A stretch of 8,657 nucleotides of DNA, from positions 1 through 8,657 of the forward strand of contig JAGAIH010000124.1 in assembly GCA_017626655.1 (NCBI GenBank), read 5' to 3'. The stretch is from Clostridia bacterium. GTDB taxonomy: Bacteria > Bacillota_A > Clostridia > Oscillospirales > CAG-272. Of this stretch, positions 2 through 8,657 are shown piece after piece; within the stretch, counting starts at the first letter, position 1; the number at the start of each line of letters is the position of its first letter. A model generated the notes under the pieces. It was given only the letters and a program-made list of their open reading frames with translations. It was not told the DNA's origin and made no database searches. The translations under genes and the position numbers were made by a program.

Positions 2-2731
2 ACCGCCATCCACGCGGGCGAAGCCATGTCCGAGGAGACCCTGGACGCCGCCCTGGACCGCCTCCTGGCCTTCGCCAACGCCTGCGCGGCGGGGGCTTCC
101 GCCACCGTGTCGGAGGAGACCGCCGAAGAGCCTGCCTTTATGGACGGATCCACCACTGACGAAGAAAAGACGGTCGATATCGGTGGGCCTTCCACCACTA
201 ACGACCAAGATGGGCCCGATACAGATACGGAATCCCCCACCGAGCCTACGGAGACCGCTCCCATAGAGCCTCCCTTCGACACCGCCACCGACCAAAGACC
301 CACCGCCCCGCCCGACTCCCTCCGACAGAGAGCCCTGGACGGCGCCACGGTGCTTTTGGAGAACCGCGACAAGCTCCTCCCCTTGACCAAGCCCACCCGT
401 GTCTGCATCCTGGGCGATATCGCCCGCGAGGGAGAGGACGTCCTCCCCCTGGCCAATGCCCTGACCGCCCACGGCCACACCTACCTGGGCTTCGCCCGCG
501 GCTACGATCCTGCCCTGGACCGAGACGACCGCCTCACTGCCGAGGCATTGGCCATGGCGGCCCAGGCCGACGTGGTCCTCCTCTTCGCGGGGACCCAAAC
601 AGGCCGCTCCCGCCTCCCCGCCGCCCAGCTGGCTCTGCTAGATGAGGTGGGACACCTGGGCAAGAAGACGGTGGTGGTCCTCTCCTCCGAGATCGCCCCC
701 GGCGTGGGCTTCCTCCGTACCATGGTCACCCCCGTGGCGGGCCTGCTCCTCACCCCCCTGTCGGTGAAGGGCGCCGCTCTCCACGCCGTGGAGACCCTGT
801 TGGGTGACCGCGCCCCCCTGGGACGCCTGACCGAGACCCTCACCGATCCCGCCGACCCCGCCGCCGACCGCCGCGGCTACAAGGTAGGCCCCTTCGTGGG
901 CTACCGCTACTACGATACCGTCGGCCTGGGCGCGGTCTACCCCTTCGGTCACGGTCTGAGCTACACCAAGTTCCGCTACTCCGCCCTGAAGGTCGACCCC
1001 CAGGGGGCTGTTACCTTCACGGTCCAAAATGTGGGCAAGCGGGCAGGGGTCGCCATCCCCCAGGTCTACCTGGGGATCAAGGGCTCCACCGTCCTGCGCC
1101 CCCAAAAGGAGCTGATGGGCTTCGCCTATATCCCCCTGCAACCCATGGAGGAGCGAACGGTCACCCTCTCCTTCGGCGATCCCCTCTACCTGTCCGCGGG
1201 CATCCGCGAGCAGGGAAGCTACCGCCTGTTCGTGGGAGAGTCGGTGGCCGATATCCGCCTGACCGCCGACTGCAAGGCGGGGGAGGGCGCCCTGCCCCCC
1301 GACGGTGCCAAGCCCCACGAATACCTCCCCACCGTCACCAACATCCTCACTGAACGCTACGTATTGGAGGCTGAGTATACGCCTATGAAACCCTCACTTC
1401 GGAACCTGCTCTTCGGCATCGCCGCCATGATCCTGGCGGTGAGCGTCAAGATCTACGATATCGTCTCCGTCTCGAACTCGGTGTTCCTCAGCATCGTGGC
1501 GGGACTTTTGGCCGTGGGCGCGGTGTTCTTCTTTGTCCTGGAGCTGACCGACCGCAAAAAGCAGTTCGCCCGTGAGCGGGCCGCCCTGGAGGAGGCCAAC
1601 GCCGCCCTTTTCGCCGAGGCCGACGATATCCCCGTCCCCTCGGCCGACGCCCTCTTTGAGCTGACCGCCGAAGCCGGTGACGAAGCAGACGGCGAGCAGA
1701 CCAAGGCCCCCGCCGACGAGTTCGACCATTTCCTGGACGCCGATAAGACGCTGACCTTCCCCGTGGCCGCCGCCGCCATCTCAGCCCTGGCCGCCGAAAA
1801 GGGCCTGGGGATCTCCCCCTCCACCGCACAGAGCCTCCTGGCCGCCATGTCTGCCTCCCGCTTGATGGTGTTGAAGGATGTGAGCGAGGAGCGTTTCACC
1901 GCCCTGACCGCCCTGCTCTGCGAGTATTTCGGTACCCCCCACGCCGTGGATGCGGTGGACGACAGCTACACCGACGAGGCCGCCCTGCTCTACGGTCAAA
2001 GCGAGGCCGGGGAGACGGTCCCCCGCGGTGCTTTGGAGGTCATCGAGGCTGCCCGCCGCGATCCCCGCTCCATCCACTTTGTCAATCTGTCCGCCGTGAC
2101 CTTTGCAGGCATTTCGGACTACTTCGTCCCCTACGCCCGCTATGCCCGCGCCCCTCACACCGCCTGCTCGGTCACCGCCCGCGACACCGAGGGGAGCGAG
2201 GTTGCCTACCTCCTGCCCGAGAACCTGTGGTTCGTGCTGAACCTCCGCGAGGGCGAGGGGCTCCACCTCCTGCCCGATTACATGGCCGAGGTGGCCGCGG
2301 TCCTGACCCCCGTCCTGGAGACGGCAGAGCCTACCTCCACCCACGCCGAATTCGCTCCCTTCCGCTACGGCCAGATGCTCTACCTCAGCGACCGCATGAA
2401 GGCCTCCTTCGCCCTGGAGGAGGACACCTGGAAGCGCATCGACCGCCTGGAGGCCTACGCCGCCCGCTTCGGTGGCTTCACCCTCACCAACAAGCTCTGG
2501 CTGGGCCTGGAGGCCTACCTGGCCGTCCTGCTCACGGGGGAGACCGATCCCGCCGCCGCCCTGGACGAGGCCTTAGCCGCCAAGCTCCTGCCCGCCCTCA
2601 TCCCCGCCCTGTCGGGAAAGATCCCCGCCGAGGAGCGGAGCTTCACCGAGACCCTGGACGCCATCCTGGGGGATGGCAACACCCCGATCTGCCGCAAGAC
2701 CGTCAAGGAGTCGGGGGCAGACCTCACCTGA
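2..2731 (+). CDS. GH3-like / FnIII-like / membrane hairpin / degenerate AAA+ fusion protein (5' partial)
   Basis: The frame is open to the left edge, so the true start lies upstream; residues here count from the Met codon at 26. The codons before and after it look like the end of a GH3 N-terminal domain (AG-x4-EETLD-x3-DRLL). An acidic Thr/Pro/Glu linker follows (about 24-97), then a GH3 C-terminal domain (about 98-315) with GATVLLEN-x4-LPL (106-120) and the hallmark YPFGHGLSYT (305-314), then an FnIII-like domain (about 316-425). Two hydrophobic helices (461-482, 486-507) flanked by Lys/Arg form a hairpin, which would put both large parts in the cytoplasm unless a further helix lies upstream. 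Residues about 575-861 align with the downstream AAA+ proteins, but the nucleotide-binding motifs are gone: DVSEERFT (618-625) for Walker A and LSA (688-690) for Walker B LDE. The GH3 nucleophile region is outside the window, and the usual acid/base loop before LPAAQ looks shortened, so sugar hydrolysis is doubtful. A scaffold or sugar-sensing role is inference. Domain calls at the N-terminal side are firm; the AAA-like call rests on manual alignment. Confidence 0.85.
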   Translation, partial: TAIHAGEAMSEETLDAALDRLLAFANACAAGASATVSEETAEEPAFMDGSTTDEEKTVDIGGPSTTNDQDGPDTDTESPTEPTETAPIEPPFDTATDQRPTAPPDSLRQRALDGATVLLENRDKLLPLTKPTRVCILGDIAREGEDVLPLANALTAHGHTYLGFARGYDPALDRDDRLTAEALAMAAQADVVLLFAGTQTGRSRLPAAQLALLDEVGHLGKKTVVVLSSEIAPGVGFLRTMVTPVAGLLLTPLSVKGAALHAVETLLGDRAPLGRLTETLTDPADPAADRRGYKVGPFVGYRYYDTVGLGAVYPFGHGLSYTKFRYSALKVDPQGAVTFTVQNVGKRAGVAIPQVYLGIKGSTVLRPQKELMGFAYIPLQPMEERTVTLSFGDPLYLSAGIREQGSYRLFVGESVADIRLTADCKAGEGALPPDGAKPHEYLPTVTNILTERYVLEAEYTPMKPSLRNLLFGIAAMILAVSVKIYDIVSVSNSVFLSIVAGLLAVGAVFFFVLELTDRKKQFARERAALEEANAALFAEADDIPVPSADALFELTAEAGDEADGEQTKAPADEFDHFLDADKTLTFPVAAAAISALAAEKGLGISPSTAQSLLAAMSASRLMVLKDVSEERFTALTALLCEYFGTPHAVDAVDDSYTDEAALLYGQSEAGETVPRGALEVIEAARRDPRSIHFVNLSAVTFAGISDYFVPYARYARAPHTACSVTARDTEGSEVAYLLPENLWFVLNLREGEGLHLLPDYMAEVAAVLTPVLETAEPTSTHAEFAPFRYGQMLYLSDRMKASFALEEDTWKRIDRLEAYAARFGGFTLTNKLWLGLEAYLAVLLTGETDPAAALDEALAAKLLPALIPALSGKIPAEERSFTETLDAILGDGNTPICRKTVKESGADLT
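1748..2608 (+). other. Degenerate (pseudo) AAA+ domain inside the first gene
   Basis: This is a domain within the first CDS. By eye it lines up with the AAA+ domain encoded at 2991-4076. The segment before Walker A ends M-x2-S-[KR] plus hydrophobics in both. The segment after Walker B keeps YF. The strand before sensor 1 is LP-x-N-[ML]-WF in both, and the last helices share N-[RK], Y-x2-V and AL-D-x3-A-x-K. Spacing agrees: 64 residues from the Walker A Thr to the Walker B Asp position, 89 from the sensor 1 strand Asn to the sensor 2 Asn, and 41 against 42 from the upstream T-L pair to Walker A. The key residues are lost: the Walker A Lys is Phe624, the Walker B Asp-Glu is Ser689-Ala690, and the GTANNDDST stretch is replaced by LNLREGEGL (738-746). 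It is probably a non-hydrolysing subunit or adaptor. Confidence 0.65.
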
Positions 2732-2750: not shown

Positions 2751-4076
2751 ATGCAACATCTGATCCATCCGACCGCCGCGCTCCTCTTCGGGGAAGGGGG
2801 CCTGCCCGCCCTCCTGACCTCGGGGACCGCCATCGTGGTCTACATCTTCCTCATACTCACCGTCATCGCCGTCCTGGTGCTGGTGGTGCTTTGGGGCGGC
2901 CGTGAGAAGAACCCGCCCAAGGGGGAGACAAAGTCCCCCGCCCTCGACGGCACCGCTCTCCCCTTTACCGAGGGAAAGGACTCCGCGGACACTGCCGTCG
3001 GCCGCTTCTGTATGCTGACCCGCATCGAGGAGAACCGCCACCGCTACGGCCATCCCCGCTACGATACCACCGTCACCCTGGATCGCTTCTGCGAGGACTT
3101 CCGCAACTACGCCGCCTACCAGTTGAAGCTCTACTATGACATCGACGATATCCGCCGCTTCATCGCGGGCATGGCGGTATCCAAGATCCTGATCCTCCAG
3201 GGTATGTCGGGTACGGGTAAGACCTCCCTGGCCCACGCCTTCGGCGAGTTCGTGGACAACCGCTCCACCGTCATCCCCGTCCAGCCCATGTGGAAGGAGC
3301 GCACCGACCTCATCGGCTACTACAACGAATTCACCAAGCGATTCAACGAGACCTTGCTTCTCGAAAAGATGTACGAGGCTAACTACTCCGGCGATATGTA
3401 CGTCACGGTGCTGGACGAGATGAACATCGCCCGCGTGGAATACTATTTTGCCGAGTTCCTCTCCCTCCTGGAGCTGCCCAACCCCGAGGAACGCTACCTC
3501 ACCGTGGTTTCCGACACCTGGCCCGGCGACCCCGCGGGACTCAAGGACGGCCGCATCAAGCTCCCCGTGAATATGTGGTTCATCGGCACCGCCAATAACG
3601 ACGACTCCACCTTCGCCATCTCGGATAAGGTCTACGACCGCGCCATGGTCCTGGACCTGGACCGTAAGAGCGAGCGCTTCGTGGCTCCCAAGACCAAGCC
3701 CCTCCACATCTCCGCCGACCATTTCGCCAAGCTTGCCGACGCCGCCACCAAGGAGTACGCCGTCAGCGCCCGCAACCGCGCCCGCTTGCAGATGCTGGAT
3801 CAGTACCTCATCGAGCATTTTCACATCACCTTCGGTAACCGCATCATGAAGCAGATCAACACCTACATCCCCGTCTTCATCGCCTGCGGCGGCGACGAGC
3901 TGGTGGCCCTGGACGATATCCTGGCCAAAAAGGTTATCCGCAAGCTGGAGACCCAGAACCCCATCTACCTCCGCGGCGCCGCCGAGGGCCTCCTGGGCTA
4001 CCTCGACGAGCTGTTTGGTCCCGACCGCATGACCGCCTGTAAGGAGGCCATCCAAAGACTCCGCCGTAACGCGTAA
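2751..4076 (+). CDS. Membrane-anchored McrB-like AAA+ NTPase, copy A
   Basis: The product is 441 residues long. A single hydrophobic helix (about 25-50) follows an N-terminal tail without Lys or Arg and precedes GGREK, so the tail should be outside and the AAA+ domain in the cytoplasm. A linker (51-80) leads to a conserved block (81-150) and an AAA_5/McrB-type core: Walker A GMSGTGKT (151-158), Walker B VLDEMN (Asp222, Glu223), the region following it with YYFAEFLSLLE, sensor 1 strand and GTANNDDST (279-287), a candidate arginine finger in YDRA (Arg297), and a sensor-2-like GNR (Arg364). The motifs look intact, so NTP hydrolysis is expected. McrB proteins are GTPases with MNxxDxS at the sensor 1 position; here it reads ANNDDST, so nucleotide preference is uncertain. 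The gene starts 19 bases after the GH3-like gene. Residues 81-441 are nearly identical to copy B. The substrate is unknown; ring formation with copy B and the gene 1 domain is inference. Confidence 0.88.
   Translation: MQHLIHPTAALLFGEGGLPALLTSGTAIVVYIFLILTVIAVLVLVVLWGGREKNPPKGETKSPALDGTALPFTEGKDSADTAVGRFCMLTRIEENRHRYGHPRYDTTVTLDRFCEDFRNYAAYQLKLYYDIDDIRRFIAGMAVSKILILQGMSGTGKTSLAHAFGEFVDNRSTVIPVQPMWKERTDLIGYYNEFTKRFNETLLLEKMYEANYSGDMYVTVLDEMNIARVEYYFAEFLSLLELPNPEERYLTVVSDTWPGDPAGLKDGRIKLPVNMWFIGTANNDDSTFAISDKVYDRAMVLDLDRKSERFVAPKTKPLHISADHFAKLADAATKEYAVSARNRARLQMLDQYLIEHFHITFGNRIMKQINTYIPVFIACGGDELVALDDILAKKVIRKLETQNPIYLRGAAEGLLGYLDELFGPDRMTACKEAIQRLRRNA
2991..4076 (+). repeat. Long direct repeat, unit A (AAA+ coding)
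   Basis: This 1086-base unit runs from the Thr-Ala-Val-Gly-Arg-Phe codons to the stop codon of AAA+ copy A and is repeated in the same direction at 6152-7237. By hand I count about 60 base differences (near 94% identity) and six amino acid differences in 361. Similarity stops one base past the stop codon and at the membrane-anchor junction. Confidence 0.9.
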
Positions 4077-4204: not shown

Positions 4205-5866
4205 ATGAACCCATCCGACGCCTACTATCGGGCGCTTCTGGCCTACAAAAAGCTCACCGCCGAGCAGAGAGACTGCCGACGGGACAGCCATACCTTTGCC
4301 GAGGCCGAGGGCACCCGCCGCATCACGGTGTCCCGAGTGGACTGCACCGTGGACGAGGCCTGGATCAATGCCATCGAGGCGGGGCTCATCCACATCGAGA
4401 AGGCCATCAAGGAGGAGCGGCAGTTCATCTACTCCAACGGGGAGGTCATCCTCATCGAGAAGGTCAAGCAGGTATCCAAGGACTCGGTGGAGCATCTGGC
4501 CCGCCACGCCGAGCTGATTACCCGCGCCCCCGAGGGGGAGGATCTCATCCCCGATAAGCTCTATACGGTGGAGCGCCTCAGCGACTACGCCGTCTATGAG
4601 AACCGCTTCCTCTACATGCTCCTCTGCTACCTGCGGGACTTCGTCACCCTCCGCTACCAGAAGATTCTGGAGCTGACCAACCGCTATGAGGGACACTTGA
4701 TCCTGGATCGGGAGATTACCTCCTTCGGCCGTACCGTTACGGTGAAGCTGGACCTCACCGACCATAGGCAGGACGACCCCTACCTCCGTGAGCATAACCC
4801 CGCCAAGAGCCTCATCGACCGCATGGACCTCATCCTCAAGACCGTGCTGGCCTTCCTGGCCACTCCCCTCATGGAGAGCGCGGGCAAGGCCGCCATGCTC
4901 AAGCCCCCCATCACCAAGACCAACGTCCTGAAGATGGACAACAACTTCAAGGGCGCGGTGGCTCTTTACGATTACATCATCGCCTACGAGGGAGACGGCT
5001 ACACCGTCACCGAGAACACCCGGGAGATCGACCCCTTCGGGGACGCCCTCAAGGAGGATATGGCCGAGGCCGAGCTGCTTTTGGGCGAGCTGACCTACCG
5101 CTACGGCCTGGACCTCACCCCCGCCCTCAAGGCAGACCTGGAGCGGGACCGGAACGCCGCCCGTACCGCCGAGCTGAAATCCCGCGCCGACGCCCTGGAG
5201 CAGCTCCGCCGTCGCCTGGAGCGGGATGGGGAAGTACCCGAGACCTACATCCTGGAGCTGGAGAAGCTCACCCGCGCCCTCAGGATCGAGCTGGACCGCT
5301 TCGACCCCCTCAACGCCGAGCTGGACCGCCGCAAGCAGACCGAGCTGGCCCTCACCGACAAGATGGCCGCCCTCGCCGCCCGCATCGAGGGCTTCGACGA
5401 GGAGAGACGGCAGGCCGATGCCGCCTTCGCCCTGGCCGAGCAGGAAAACGAGCAACGCCACCGCCGCGAGCAGACCCATCTCATGGATGCCCAGACCGCC
5501 GAGAAGGCCGCCTGGGCCGAGAAAGCCGAGGCTGAGCGGGCCGACCACCGAGACGAGGTGGCCGCTCTCAGGGCCGAGATCGCCCGCAAGCAGGCCGAGA
5601 TCGACCGCATCTCCGCCGATTACAAGGCCCTGACCGCCGAGAAACGCCTTCTCCACGCCCAGGTCCTGGGCCAGCGAGCCGCCCAAAAGGGAGTCACCCC
5701 CGCCGAGATGGAGGCCATGACCGACAAGGACAGCTTCGACGAGCTGGAGCGGGAGCTGGAGGCCTTTACCAAGCTCTACGAAAGGGTCTGGAAGCAGACC
5801 AAGCGCAAGATCCGCAAGGATCTTCTGAACCCCAAATACATCAAAGGGCAGAGCGGCAAGCAGTAA
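4205..5866 (+). CDS. DUF2357-like (McrC-family-like) protein with long coiled coil
   Basis: The product is 553 residues long with no signal peptide or membrane helix, so it is probably cytoplasmic. Residues about 40-290 resemble DUF2357 proteins, partners of McrB-like NTPases. The supporting features are a Tyr-Glu-Asn-Arg-Phe motif (131-135) followed by a helix, the usual place for the family's ENRF signature, and TNVLKMDNNFKGAVALYDYI-type sequence around Asn240-Lys249, near the end of the domain. Residues about 308-483 are a long, highly charged Ala/Glu/Arg/Lys coiled coil broken near 340-350. The tail (about 524-553) is basic and ends in KYIKGQSGKQ. I see no PD-(D/E)xK nuclease motif, which commonly follows DUF2357. 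Placement between two McrB-like genes supports a partner or regulator of the AAA+ ring, like McrC for McrB. The coiled coil could mediate assembly or reach a distant target, and the basic tail could bind lipid or nucleic acid (inference). The family call comes from motif memory and is moderately sure; the reading frame is certain. Confidence 0.85.
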   Translation: MNPSDAYYRALLAYKKLTAEQRDCRRDSHTFAEAEGTRRITVSRVDCTVDEAWINAIEAGLIHIEKAIKEERQFIYSNGEVILIEKVKQVSKDSVEHLARHAELITRAPEGEDLIPDKLYTVERLSDYAVYENRFLYMLLCYLRDFVTLRYQKILELTNRYEGHLILDREITSFGRTVTVKLDLTDHRQDDPYLREHNPAKSLIDRMDLILKTVLAFLATPLMESAGKAAMLKPPITKTNVLKMDNNFKGAVALYDYIIAYEGDGYTVTENTREIDPFGDALKEDMAEAELLLGELTYRYGLDLTPALKADLERDRNAARTAELKSRADALEQLRRRLERDGEVPETYILELEKLTRALRIELDRFDPLNAELDRRKQTELALTDKMAALAARIEGFDEERRQADAAFALAEQENEQRHRREQTHLMDAQTAEKAAWAEKAEAERADHRDEVAALRAEIARKQAEIDRISADYKALTAEKRLLHAQVLGQRAAQKGVTPAEMEAMTDKDSFDELERELEAFTKLYERVWKQTKRKIRKDLLNPKYIKGQSGKQ

Positions 5867-5884: not shown

Positions 5885-7237
5885 ATGAAACAGAAACTCA
5901 CCCCAAAAACACGCAAGCGGCTGATCGTCCTGACCGTGGTGCTGGAGCTGATTTTGGCGGCTCTGGTGATCTACGGCATCGCCAGTGGGATCCTGCTGGA
6001 CTCCCTGGCGGGGGGCATCGTGATCGTCATGCTCCTCCTCATCCCGGTCCTGCTGGTGGCGCTCCTCATCGCCGTGGTCTTTGGCAAGAAGAAGCCTGAA
6101 CCCGCCGCCGAAGCTCCCGCGCCACGGACTGAGGCCCCCTCCGAGGAGGAAACCGCCGTCGGTCGCTTCTGTATGCTGACCCGCATCGAGGAGAACCGCC
6201 ACCGCTACGGCCATCCCCGCTACGATACCACCGTCACCCTGGACCGCTTCTGCGAGGACTTCCGCAACTACGCGTCCTATCAACTGAAATTGTACTACGA
6301 CATCGACGATATCCGCCGCTTCATCGCGGGCATGGCGGTGTCCAAGATCCTCATCCTCCAGGGTATGTCGGGTACGGGTAAGACCTCCCTGGCCCACGCC
6401 TTCGGCGAGTTTGTGGACAACCGCTCCACCGTCATCCCCGTCCAGCCCATGTGGAAGGAGCGCACCGACCTCATCGGCTACTACAACGAGTTCACCAAAC
6501 GCTTCAACGAGACTCTGCTTCTCGAAAAGATGTACGAGGCCAACTACTCCGGGGATATGTACGTCACCGTCCTGGACGAGATGAACATCGCCCGTGTGGA
6601 GTACTACTTCGCCGAGTTCCTCTCCCTCCTGGAGCTGCCTGACCCCGAGGAGCGCTACCTCACCGTGGTCTCGGACACCTGGCCCGGCGACCCCGCGGGA
6701 CTCAAGGACGGCCGCATCAAGCTCCCCGTGAATATGTGGTTCATCGGCACCGCCAATAACGACGATTCCACCTTCGCCATCTCGGATAAGGTCTACGACC
6801 GCGCCATGGTCCTGGACCTGGACCGCAAATCCGAGCGCTTCGTGGCCCCCAAGACAAAGCCCCTCCACATCTCCGCCGACCACTTCGGAAGGCTTGCCGA
6901 CGCCGCCACCAAGGAGTACGCCGTCAGCGCCCGCAACCGCGCCCGTTTGCAGATGCTGGATCAGTACCTCATTGAGCATTTCCACATCACCTTCGGTAAC
7001 CGCATCATGAAGCAGATCAACACCTACATTCCCGTCTTCATCGCCTGCGGCGGAGACGAGCTGGTGGCTCTGGACGATATCCTGGCCAAAAAGGTCATCC
7101 GCAAGCTGGAGACCCAGAATCCCATCTACCTTCGCGGAGCCGCCGAGGGTCTTCTCAATTACCTCGACGAGCTGTTCGGTCCCGACCTCATGACCGCCTG
7201 TAAGGAGGCCATCCAAAGACTCCGCCGTAACGCGTAA
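5885..7237 (+). CDS. Membrane-anchored McrB-like AAA+ NTPase, copy B
   Basis: The product is 450 residues long. The N-terminus is basic (MKQKLTPKTRKR), then two hydrophobic helices (about 13-37 and 44-67) form a hairpin ending in GKKK, so both ends should be cytoplasmic. An Ala/Pro/Glu linker (70-89) leads to the part shared with copy A (90-450). Walker A is GMSGTGKT (160-167), Walker B VLDEMN (Asp231, Glu232), the sensor 1 stretch GTANNDDST (288-296), the candidate arginine finger Arg306, and sensor 2 Arg373. All are intact. Against copy A only six residues differ (A to S, N to D, AK to GR, G to N, R to L), none of them in these motifs. The first 89 residues are unrelated to those of copy A. 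The start is 18 bases after the previous stop, in the same frame, with only a weak ribosome binding site, so translation may depend on reinitiation. Function is as proposed for copy A; having two anchors on one motor suggests two subunit types in one complex. Confidence 0.88.
   Translation: MKQKLTPKTRKRLIVLTVVLELILAALVIYGIASGILLDSLAGGIVIVMLLLIPVLLVALLIAVVFGKKKPEPAAEAPAPRTEAPSEEETAVGRFCMLTRIEENRHRYGHPRYDTTVTLDRFCEDFRNYASYQLKLYYDIDDIRRFIAGMAVSKILILQGMSGTGKTSLAHAFGEFVDNRSTVIPVQPMWKERTDLIGYYNEFTKRFNETLLLEKMYEANYSGDMYVTVLDEMNIARVEYYFAEFLSLLELPDPEERYLTVVSDTWPGDPAGLKDGRIKLPVNMWFIGTANNDDSTFAISDKVYDRAMVLDLDRKSERFVAPKTKPLHISADHFGRLADAATKEYAVSARNRARLQMLDQYLIEHFHITFGNRIMKQINTYIPVFIACGGDELVALDDILAKKVIRKLETQNPIYLRGAAEGLLNYLDELFGPDLMTACKEAIQRLRRNA
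6152..7237 (+). repeat. Long direct repeat, unit B (AAA+ coding)
   Basis: Second unit of the 1086-base direct repeat, offset 3161 bases from the first. Differences from unit A are mostly at third codon positions and are uneven. Tracts identical for 77 to 92 bases (for example those matching 3003-3082, 3252-3328 and 3513-3604) alternate with dense patches, such as nine changes in the 30 bases at 6272-6301. Confidence 0.9.
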
Positions 7238-7269: not shown

Positions 7270-8657
7270 ATGTCAAGAGAAAAGCTCATCCGCGTCCTCT
7301 GTATCGCGCTGGTCACCACGGTCCTCGCCCTGGCCTTGATCCTGGTCGTGGCTGTGGCAGGGGGAATGATCGCCTCCCCCTCGGTCCCCGAGGAGGGAGA
7401 CAGCGGCTTCGAGCCCTCCTTCCCCCAGGGGACCTTCGACTCCGGGGATATCCTGGAGTCCCTGGATCCCGACGACTTCACCCGTGAGCCCCACGGGACC
7501 CTCCCCCCCGAGCCCGAGATCACCCTCCCCGAGTGGGAGAGCGACTTCGAGTGGCCGACCCTTCCCCCCACACTGGAGACCGACCCCGACTTCGAGCTGC
7601 CCACCCTCCCCGAGGGCTGGGACACCCTGCCCGAGGAGTGGGAGACCCTGCCCCCCGAGTGGGGCGATGCGGGTGACGGCCTGCCCTTCGACCCCGATGA
7701 CCTGGCAGACCTCCTGGCAGGTCTGAACGGAGAACTGGGACTTCCCCCCGGCGCCCTGGCCGCAGGCGTGGCCTCCCAACTGACCGTCATGGAGATCTAC
7801 GCCGAGCGGGACGACCGCGTCTACCTGATGATGCAGGCCTTTGGCGACTACACGGGACAGGGCTGGAGCGAGGCGGTCGCCTATCCGGGCGAGTCTTATG
7901 GCTACGGCGGGATCTATTGCTATCCCCACTACCACATGGACGCTCTGACACCCTTCATGGGCTACCCCCTCGAGATCACCCCGAAAATGGAGGTCAGCGT
8001 CCTTCCGTACTACCTTACCACCCACGGCAGTGATGCGCTGAAGCTGAACAGCGACGTCAAGGCCGAGGGAGACGGCACCCTCCCCTACACCGTCTACTAC
8101 CGCCCCTACAGCACCTACGCGGGCGCGGATCGGGTGGATCAACTCTTCGCCACCCATGAGCGGGCCTATACGGCCTACGTTACGGAGCGGTACTGCGCCT
8201 TAGATCCCACCACGGCGGCCTACATGGACATGATCATCGAGCGGGAGGGCTTTGACAAGGATGACCCCGACATCATCCAAAAGGTAGCCGCCTACATCCA
8301 AAACTCCGCTGCCTATAACCTTGCCTACGACCAGAACCTGGACCGCGAGCCCAACGTGGCTCTGGCCTTCCTGGGAGCCTACAAGGAGGGCGTCTGCCGC
8401 CACTTCGCCACCGCCGCTACCCTCCTCTACCGCGCCTTGGGCATCCCCGCCCGCTACACCGTGGGCTTCATGACCGACGTCAGCGCGGGGGAGACCACCA
8501 CCGTCAAGGGCATGGACGCCCACGCCTGGGTGGAGGTCTACGTGGAGGGCTTCGGCTGGCAGTACGTGGAGGTCACGGGCTTCCCCGCAGGGGAGGGACC
8601 CACCGAGCCGGGCACGGGTACTGCCCCCGGCACCGGCGGGGACAGTACCGAGCCTCC
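7270..8657 (+). CDS. Membrane-anchored transglutaminase-like protein (3' partial)
   Basis: The frame stays open to the right edge, giving 462 residues with the end missing. MSREKLIR precedes one hydrophobic helix (about 9-36), so the rest should lie outside the membrane. Residues about 38-165 form an acidic Pro-rich stalk with a repeated T-L-P-x-x-W theme (near 85-89, 112-117, 119-124, 126-131); from 9 to 179 the only basic Lys/Arg residue is Arg72. A mixed region (about 166-330) precedes a transglutaminase-like core: GVCRHFATAATLLYRALGIP with Cys376, then DAHAWVEVY with His418, then W-x3-EVTG with Glu434 where many members have Asp. A Thr/Gly/Pro-rich stretch follows, and another membrane helix may lie beyond the window. 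The fold serves in peptidases, cross-linking enzymes and inactive scaffolds, so the reaction cannot be told. The short 32-base gap after AAA+ copy B places it in the same operon, suggesting an envelope-facing effector. The core assignment is strong. Confidence 0.88.
   Translation, partial: MSREKLIRVLCIALVTTVLALALILVVAVAGGMIASPSVPEEGDSGFEPSFPQGTFDSGDILESLDPDDFTREPHGTLPPEPEITLPEWESDFEWPTLPPTLETDPDFELPTLPEGWDTLPEEWETLPPEWGDAGDGLPFDPDDLADLLAGLNGELGLPPGALAAGVASQLTVMEIYAERDDRVYLMMQAFGDYTGQGWSEAVAYPGESYGYGGIYCYPHYHMDALTPFMGYPLEITPKMEVSVLPYYLTTHGSDALKLNSDVKAEGDGTLPYTVYYRPYSTYAGADRVDQLFATHERAYTAYVTERYCALDPTTAAYMDMIIEREGFDKDDPDIIQKVAAYIQNSAAYNLAYDQNLDREPNVALAFLGAYKEGVCRHFATAATLLYRALGIPARYTVGFMTDVSAGETTTVKGMDAHAWVEVYVEGFGWQYVEVTGFPAGEGPTEPGTGTAPGTGGDSTEP

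Follow-up and report, generated by a model that had tools for sequence, protein, structure and literature searches.

A candidate pseudo-AAA+ subunit fused to a degenerate GH3 protein in a McrB-like membrane operon of uncultured Clostridia

Organization of the locus

The window analysed in this work is a whole stretch of 8,657 nt from a Clostridia bacterium (CAG-272; assembly GCA_017626655.1, contig JAGAIH010000124.1, forward strand). Its five genes lie on the plus strand in an operon cut at both ends. Our subject is the first of them, gene 1, which domain annotation reads as a glycoside hydrolase family 3 (GH3) protein only, and in which neither of two enzyme folds keeps its catalytic residues. 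The initial annotation had placed an inactive AAA+ domain at the end of this GH3-like protein, beside two intact paralogues encoded downstream (AAA-A and AAA-B), and this proposal is borne out by sequence, profile and structure comparisons as well as by recurrence of the arrangement in related genomes. The features of the window are collected in Table 1.

Table 1. Genes, domains and sequence motifs of the window.
Feature	Positions	Strand	Evidence
Gene 1 (truncated at its 5' end): pseudo-GH3, Fn3-like, transmembrane (TM) hairpin, pseudo-AAA+	2..2731	+	
Glyco_hydro_3_C (PF01915), gene 1 residues 116-321	347..964	+	Pfam E 2.7e-16
Fn3-like (PF14310), gene 1 residues 352-392	1055..1177	+	Pfam E 9.3e-8
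TM hairpin, two hydrophobic helices (~1406-1462, ~1478-1546)	1406..1546	+	helices 713-735 and 741-783 of the P0001 model
Predicted pseudo-AAA+ domain: RecA-like core and C-terminal helical lid	1733..2728	+	alignment, profile, structure model
Degenerate Walker A, DVSEERFT (GMSGTGKT in AAA-A); Phe at 1895-1897 replaces Lys	1877..1900	+	
Degenerate Walker B strand, Ser-Ala in place of Asp-Glu of AAA-A	2072..2095	+	
Retained LPENLWF strand; Arg at 2246-2248 replaces sensor-1 Asn of AAA-A	2213..2248	+	
Putative arginine-finger position, Val in the window	2291..2293	+	
Lid Asn-Lys pair (Asn-Arg in AAA-A)	2489..2494	+	
AAA-A: N-terminal TM segment, intact McrB-like AAA+ core (~3003-4073)	2751..4076	+	PF07728 E 6e-7
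DUF2357-like (McrC N-terminal-like) protein, predicted coiled coil	4205..5866	+	PF09823 E 8.7e-5
AAA-B: N-terminal membrane anchor unlike that of AAA-A, AAA+ core (~6164-7234)	5885..7237	+	
Transglutaminase-like protein, hydrophobic N-terminus (3' end outside the window)	7270..8657	+	PF01841 E 5.3e-21

Homology and fold of the C-terminal domain

A Pfam scan of gene 1 up to E 1 gave no match beyond residue 530. Whether an AAA+ domain is hidden there accordingly needed direct testing. Smith-Waterman alignment of residues 561-909 of gene 1 yields a score of 109 with AAA-A and the same score with AAA-B, against shuffle means of 35.8 (standard deviation (SD) 5.1) and 36.2 (SD 5.0), respectively. 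None of the 1000 shuffles reaches 109 in either comparison, which rules out chance resemblance or a compositional artefact. The C-terminus is also matched to AAA-A by BLASTP (E 5e-7, 19% identity over 308 residues), and the profile-profile comparison of the dead domain, as it is called hereafter (59 sequences), with AAA-A/B (32 sequences) gives a probability of 99.0 and E 6.1e-18 over 325 columns. The proposed homology with both downstream AAA+ proteins is thus confirmed. The domain is indeed found at 1748-2608, where it had been delimited at first, and the homologous stretch is wider than that: it covers ~330 residues (~1733-2728) and runs to the end of gene 1.

The alignment had also been described as free of obvious breaks. 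This is correct for the distance between the positions of Walker A Lys and Walker B Asp (65 residues in the dead domain, 65 in AAA-A) and for that between the sensor-1 Asn position and the lid Asn (81 residues in both). It is not correct for the segment from Walker B to sensor 1, which has 52 residues in the dead domain vs 60 in AAA-A.

The structure of the dead domain is predicted with a pLDDT (predicted local distance difference test) of 93.7, and the best structural matches of the model are the AAA+ proteins McrB, MoxR-like, RavA and BchI, with McrB 6hz4 as the top Foldseek match (E 2.7e-5). Both the alpha/beta core and the helical lid are present, and the domain tests as an AAA+ fold of the McrB/MoxR type.

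Loss of the AAA+ catalytic residues

Residues were counted over 68 dead domains, namely those of the window, L001, L002, four genome loci and 61 of the 62 homologues (P0049 is omitted). The replacement of the Walker A Lys, the Walker B Asp-Glu and sensor 1, noted earlier for the window, extends to the whole family. The Walker A Lys is found in 0/68 domains (Phe in 62/68) and the sensor-1 Asn in 0/68; the Walker B columns hold Asp in 20/68 and Glu in 4/68, and both together in 0/68. The column of the putative arginine finger, as in McrB, contains Arg in 0/68 dead domains and Val or Ile in 58/68. The Walker A Lys, the sensor-1 Asn and the putative finger Arg are each present in 32/32 AAA-A/B sequences. 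By all four features, the dead domain does not qualify as an active AAA+ ATPase/GTPase.

The LP-x-N-[ML]-WF strand is shared, as had been pointed out, with Pro in 62/68 and Trp in 67/68. The lid Asn is found in 68/68 and is followed by Lys in 66/68 and by Arg in 2/68, at a position occupied by Arg in AAA-A/B. The alignments thus describe a domain that is predicted to have lost its nucleotide chemistry and retained its shape. Because the putative arginine finger is lost as well, the dead domain should serve neither its own site nor that of a neighbour if it were part of a ring.

The pseudo-GH3 part and membrane topology

The window starts downstream of the GH3 barrel, and the inactivity of the GH3 part of its gene is judged from relatives, the closest of which is 96% identical across the C-terminal 430 residues. 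The full-length relative P0001 has 1156 aa and its model has a pLDDT of 82.3 (P0047 is omitted from the alignment for this model). The first ~280 residues of P0001 form a degenerate GH3 barrel (PF00933 E 0.095); among eight proteins scanned the best E-value for PF00933 is 8e-7, and two have no match. The relatives share both fold and sequence of this part with GH3 beta-glucosidases: the N-terminal model of P0001 matches 8j9f (Foldseek E 5e-36) and the P0054 sequence matches 7ms2 (E 1.7e-61). They differ from these enzymes in their motifs. The nucleophile Asp is present in 0/62 relatives (Arg in 43/62) and in 3/3 ordinary GH3 controls; the His of the KHF motif is present in 0/62 and the Glu of the SEDP motif in 62/62 (P0015, P0022, P0028 and P0049 are omitted from the GH3 counts and full-length alignments). 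SDW, with its nucleophile Asp, KHF and SEDP are catalytic motifs of GH3 enzymes. The nucleophile counts led us to reject a catalytically active GH3 protein with an additional domain.

Since the AAA+ catalytic residues and, in the relatives, the GH3 nucleophile are both gone, the product of gene 1 is predicted to be a double pseudoenzyme composed of pseudo-GH3, Fn3, TM hairpin and pseudo-AAA+. A decaying pseudogene was rejected in view of the 62 relatives, the absence of stops in 5/5 strong genome matches and the codon-position pattern: between the window and L001, conservation is 0.85 at codon position 2 vs 0.60 at position 3, which fits the expectation for purifying selection.

As to topology, the L037 orthologue of gene 1 has just two hydropathy stretches, in agreement with the TM hairpin. 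No hydrophobic stretch is seen by eye at the N-terminus of P0001, and basic residues flank the hairpin on both outer sides. These features would put the hairpin termini in the cytosol and suggest that the pseudo-GH3 and pseudo-AAA+ parts are both cytosolic, with the hairpin between them. An extracellular location of the GH3 part was rejected in view of the hydrophobicity of P0001 and L037 and of the basic flanks of the hairpin (judged by eye and by hydropathy).

Recurrence in related genomes

The sequences compared come from uncultured Clostridia and related genomes, two of the loci being from water-deer rectum and goat colon metagenome assemblies, and several comparison loci stop within the operon at contig ends. 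Genes of the L loci were called by a longest open reading frame rule, by which a gene beneath a longer antisense frame escapes. One of the two AAA+ genes escapes in this way in each of L082, L083 and L085, and the same may apply to the DUF2357 gene of L066.

At 9/9 loci with a visible next gene, AAA-A comes immediately after the dead AAA+ gene. Six of these are of the GH3 type (the window, L001, L037, L038, L039, L040) and three have no GH3 (L065, L066, L067). In L038 the next gene is cut after 109 residues, which give a profile match with E 2e-20; in L002 the contig ends soon past gene 1, and an AAA gene 80% identical to AAA-A is found on another contig of the same genome. AAA-A is followed by the DUF2357 gene and then by AAA-B in the window, L001 (where AAA-B is cut), L037 and L065, and the transglutaminase-like gene comes next after AAA-B in the window, L037 and L065. 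On the upstream side there is a CvpA-like membrane protein in L037, L038 and L040 (Pfam E 1.8e-4, below the cut-off), a membrane protein of 225-243 residues in L037, L039 and L040, and a TM protein of ~215 residues in L037, L040, L039 and L002. A gene of 1902 residues just upstream of gene 1 in L039 (positions 4184-9892) fuses the ~215-residue protein to BspA-type leucine-rich repeats (PF13306, 11 stretches), which may hint at a surface-exposed arm of the machine.

Strong matches of the GH3 type (>400 bits) occur in 5/146 family-level genomes, all 5 without an internal stop, in 4/394 order-sample genomes and in 1/398 phylum-sample genomes, the latter being the centre genome itself; the family, order and phylum samples overlap and were drawn from larger groups. 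Some match at E 1e-5 is found in 38/146 family-level genomes, and many of these matches are active AAA+ proteins. The active AAA profile at E 1e-50 finds 1/299 phylum-level genomes, again the centre genome.

The dead AAA+ genes of L065, L066 and L067 encode 654, 584 and 558 residues with no GH3, and Walker A GKT is lost in all three. A zinc-ribbon-like motif opens the proteins of L066 (Pfam E 4.7e-5) and L067 (E 2.5e-4), slightly short of the cut-off in both cases; the L065 protein has no Pfam match and opens with a Cys-rich segment. TM helices follow in all three. A tree of 33 AAA+ domains groups the dead ones in a single clade with support 100; the support is 96 for the GH3 type and 67 for dead domains lacking GH3. 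Most simply, the dead subunit would have arisen once and exchanged its N-terminal module later.

L068 and L069 contain the AAA-A, DUF2357, AAA-B and transglutaminase-like genes, and a dead AAA+ is absent directly upstream. Between AAA-B and the transglutaminase-like gene both loci encode a protein of 177-178 residues with one hydropathy stretch (L068, 10715-11251; L069, 5446-5979); the L068 protein has no Pfam match at E 0.01. Within positions 1-7005 of L086, the gene upstream of the AAA+ pair reads by Pfam as DUF4855 plus F5/8 type C, a surface-type protein.

The active AAA+ pair and its partners

The motifs of AAA-A/B are intact in 32/32 sequences, and N282, N283, D284 and D285 are invariant in 32/32. 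At E 0.001 the sole match of the active-pair profile among PDB sequences is McrB (E 4.6e-4). As for the membrane association of the L037 orthologues, one hydropathy stretch is seen near the start of AAA-A, two in AAA-B and one in the transglutaminase-like protein.

The cores of AAA-A and AAA-B in the window are 98.3% identical in protein and 94.4% identical in DNA, and their N-terminal anchors share 29% protein identity over 76 aligned residues. The core DNA identity between A and B is 99.9% in L037, 99.9% in L065 and 98.5% in L066; where they can be aligned, the N-terminal parts in these operons share 29-43% protein identity, and A/B cores compared between the genomes of the set (window, L037, L065, L066, the four complete operons with a dead subunit that were compared) share 66-76%. 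This pattern points to repeated gene conversion, which would hint at a need for exchangeable cores, as expected of subunits in one ring. The cores have diverged in L068 and L069 (58% and 60% DNA identity), two loci with no dead AAA+ directly upstream, and in L084 (64% DNA identity), whose contig stops at AAA-A and leaves the gene before it out of view.

The DUF2357-like protein matches PF09823 with 22.3 bits, just below the cut-off of 23.3, and some of the 120 homologues listed for it have a precomputed PF09823 assignment. It is predicted to form a coiled coil because of its SMC-like matches. Its Pfam and NCBIfam scan matched no nuclease family, the PD-(D/E)xK type of McrC included. Of the transglutaminase-like sequences looked at, 10/10 retain the Cys and His motifs. 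The third position of the triad is Glu in 8/10 (including the window) and Asp in 2/10.

Relation to known systems and the question of defence

The closest described system is CoCoPALM. Bell et al. 2024 (PMC11090510, section 7) include it in the NxD branch of McrB GTPases, with TM segments, coiled coils, McrC-like partners and neighbours of the signal-peptidase family; the paper also gives the DUF2357 stalk of McrC an activator role and announces CoCoPALM as the topic of a forthcoming paper. Among the papers found to use the name CoCoPALM, PMC11090510 and its preprint are the ones on these systems, and the operon type described here may already be covered by further CoCoPALM work. According to the NxD definition of section 7, the N-x-D-D of AAA-A/B at sensor 1 (NNDD) has the NxD motif followed by Asp or Glu, next to intact Walker A and B. 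The same letters also satisfy NxxD (N282, D285), so that the assignment to the NxD branch is not exclusive. By the account of CoCoPALM in PMC11090510, the window operon shares with it an NxD-type McrB-like NTPase with an N-terminal TM segment and a DUF2357 coiled-coil McrC-like protein. It differs by having two near-identical AAA cores with different anchors, and it adds the dead AAA+ fused to pseudo-GH3 (to a zinc ribbon in relatives) and the transglutaminase-like partner. The main text of PMC11090510 has no occurrence of the terms 'transglutaminase', 'glycos', 'GH3', 'paralog' or 'inactivated GTPase'. Of the CoCoPALM trait of an FtsB-like TM segment plus coiled coil on the GTPase, the TM segment is present in the AAA orthologues. 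No signal peptidase family is found among the five window genes of the operon cut at both ends, and one is present beside L071, a relative with a single AAA gene: of its Peptidase_S26 neighbours, one is above the Pfam cut-off and one below. The DUF2357 protein of L071 is above the cut-off as well (43 bits). Another L071 product combines a GLUG motif with a weak match to a pectate-lyase-like adhesive domain.

With E. coli McrBC the operon has in common the DUF2357 partner and McrB itself, which is the top structure match of the dead domain and the sole PDB match of the active pair. It differs in its membrane anchors, in the dead paralogue and in a DUF2357 protein without a nuclease family match. 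The MoxR-like AAA+ proteins CHU_0153 (2r44) and RavA (3nbx) are a further point of comparison; none of the five window proteins matched a vWA family. In magnesium chelatase (ChlI/ChlD, BchI/BchD) the AAA+ partner is an allosteric regulator, and BchI is among the fold matches of the dead domain. ChlD, however, serves chlorophyll synthesis, whereas gene 1 has a membrane hairpin and pseudo-GH3.

The kinship with McrBC raises the question whether the operon is an anti-phage defence system with gene 1 as its sensor, which we regard as quite improbable. McrBC relatives are restriction systems (PMC11090510), the PADLOC candidate model PDC-M26A matches AAA-A/B with 155 and 158 bits (120-169 bits when L068, L071, L073 and L076 are included), and the coiled-coil part of the DUF2357 protein has a weak LmuB match (12.7 bits, E 0.007). 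However, none of the five window proteins matched a nuclease family, the weak AAA-A/B match is to the model of the McrB subunit (an NTPase), no PADLOC model reaches E 0.01 with gene 1 or with the transglutaminase-like protein, and the accompanying genes encode transglutaminase-like proteins and other proteins of the membrane or surface. The dead domain occurs in no record of the phage collection searched, which speaks against a sensor of this kind and on which ground a phage gene was rejected.

The literature searched contained no paper naming the PADLOC model PDC-M26 and none combining DUF2357 with transglutaminase. Searches on inactive AAA+, pseudoglycosidase, GH3, McrB and transglutaminase gave, among the matches listed, no title on the gene 1 protein. 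In the passages searched of PMC7159879, from the literature on MoxR/transglutaminase/AAA+ operons, 'McrB' and 'DUF2357' occur 0 times.

Possible role of the dead subunit

We consider it somewhat more probable than its negation (roughly 55%) that gene 1 encodes a dedicated regulatory or scaffolding partner of the active membrane proteins AAA-A and AAA-B. AAA-A and AAA-B would form one ring, held at the membrane by their different anchors, and the DUF2357 coiled-coil protein would be its McrC-like activator. The dead subunit would dock on or in this ring via its retained AAA+ body and fix a non-hydrolysing position; located in the A/B ring, it would introduce a fixed break in the catalytic cycle. 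It would also link the ring to the binding partner of the cytosolic pseudo-GH3 or zinc-ribbon part, this part being an input or a tether. The transglutaminase-like partner, together with the neighbour resembling a signal peptidase in L071 (the relative with one AAA gene), makes an action on surface or envelope proteins the likely output.

Several observations weigh against a regulatory or scaffolding partner of this kind or against parts of the evidence for it. The Foldseek TM-scores are low (0.35 to McrB and 0.46 to 2r44, query-normalised), and AAA+ domains of MCM and dynein rank close behind in the structure lists; fold comparison by itself therefore gives no verdict for McrB, and the McrB assignment rests on the sequence link to AAA-A/B. 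The segment from Walker B to sensor 1 is shortened, and the Walker B columns are unevenly changed across the dead domains. The branches of the dead clade are very long and may inflate its support. The GH3-type dead profile scores L065 with 126 bits, L066 with 95 and L067 with 87, vs 79 for the active AAA-A. The long branches together with this small gap for L066 and L067 make a single origin of the dead domain insecure. The dead domains of the window and L001 are 66% identical, vs 97.5% for AAA-A, and such fast evolution is odd for a subunit packed between two A/B neighbours. Finally, the A/B cores of L086 are 94.1% identical in protein (152 codons available) next to an upstream gene without a dead AAA+, so that a homogenised A/B pair does not require a dead subunit.

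Where such a partner would be located is a matter of two readings that are about equally likely. The dead domain might, in line with the mixed ring suggested in the initial annotation, occupy a fixed place in one A/B heterohexamer, where, offering neither a nucleotide site nor an arginine finger, it would create a permanent seam. This arrangement is possible at rather less than even odds: the whole AAA+ architecture is kept including the lid, with its invariant Asn and the Lys or Arg that follows in 68/68, and the gene adjoins AAA-A at every locus where the next gene is visible, although the domain diverges fast and L068, L069 and L086 have A/B pairs without a dead AAA+ directly upstream. Alternatively, the dead domain might be placed off the A/B ring, in a layer of its own or bound to one face as a docking platform, like ChlD relative to ChlI in magnesium chelatase. 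BchI/ChlI structures are among the fold matches, and a tether would be in keeping with the TM hairpin of gene 1 and its large N-domain; nothing in the evidence separates such a platform from a mixed ring, and taken separately it is a tentative and rather unlikely placement.

The fast evolution, together with the loss of both the cis and the putative trans catalytic residues, would also fit a dead AAA+ that had left the AAA machinery and served a pseudo-GH3 membrane receptor only as a module for binding proteins or ligands, its place in the operon being historical. This is improbable in our view, as it is the N-terminal module that varies (pseudo-GH3, zinc ribbon, Cys-rich) and the dead AAA+ beside AAA-A that persists.

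Implications

The partner role can be extended, as a doubtful proposal, to a three-paralogue membrane machine in which two active AAA+ proteins would be kept alike by gene conversion and a dead one would act as a fixed asymmetric seam, with an interchangeable cytosolic module, the whole driving a transglutaminase-like surface step. If true, this machine would be a new branch of McrBC/CoCoPALM devoted to the envelope and not to defence.

Naturally inactive AAA+ subunits reveal the positions of a machine that need no catalysis. The operons compared here provide a natural series: an active pair without a dead gene upstream, a dead subunit on a zinc-ribbon or Cys-rich anchor, and a dead subunit on a pseudo-GH3 anchor, which makes the role of the dead subunit in the machine directly testable. 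The finding ties a little-studied, non-defence-looking McrB/McrC branch to possible envelope work in gut Clostridia.

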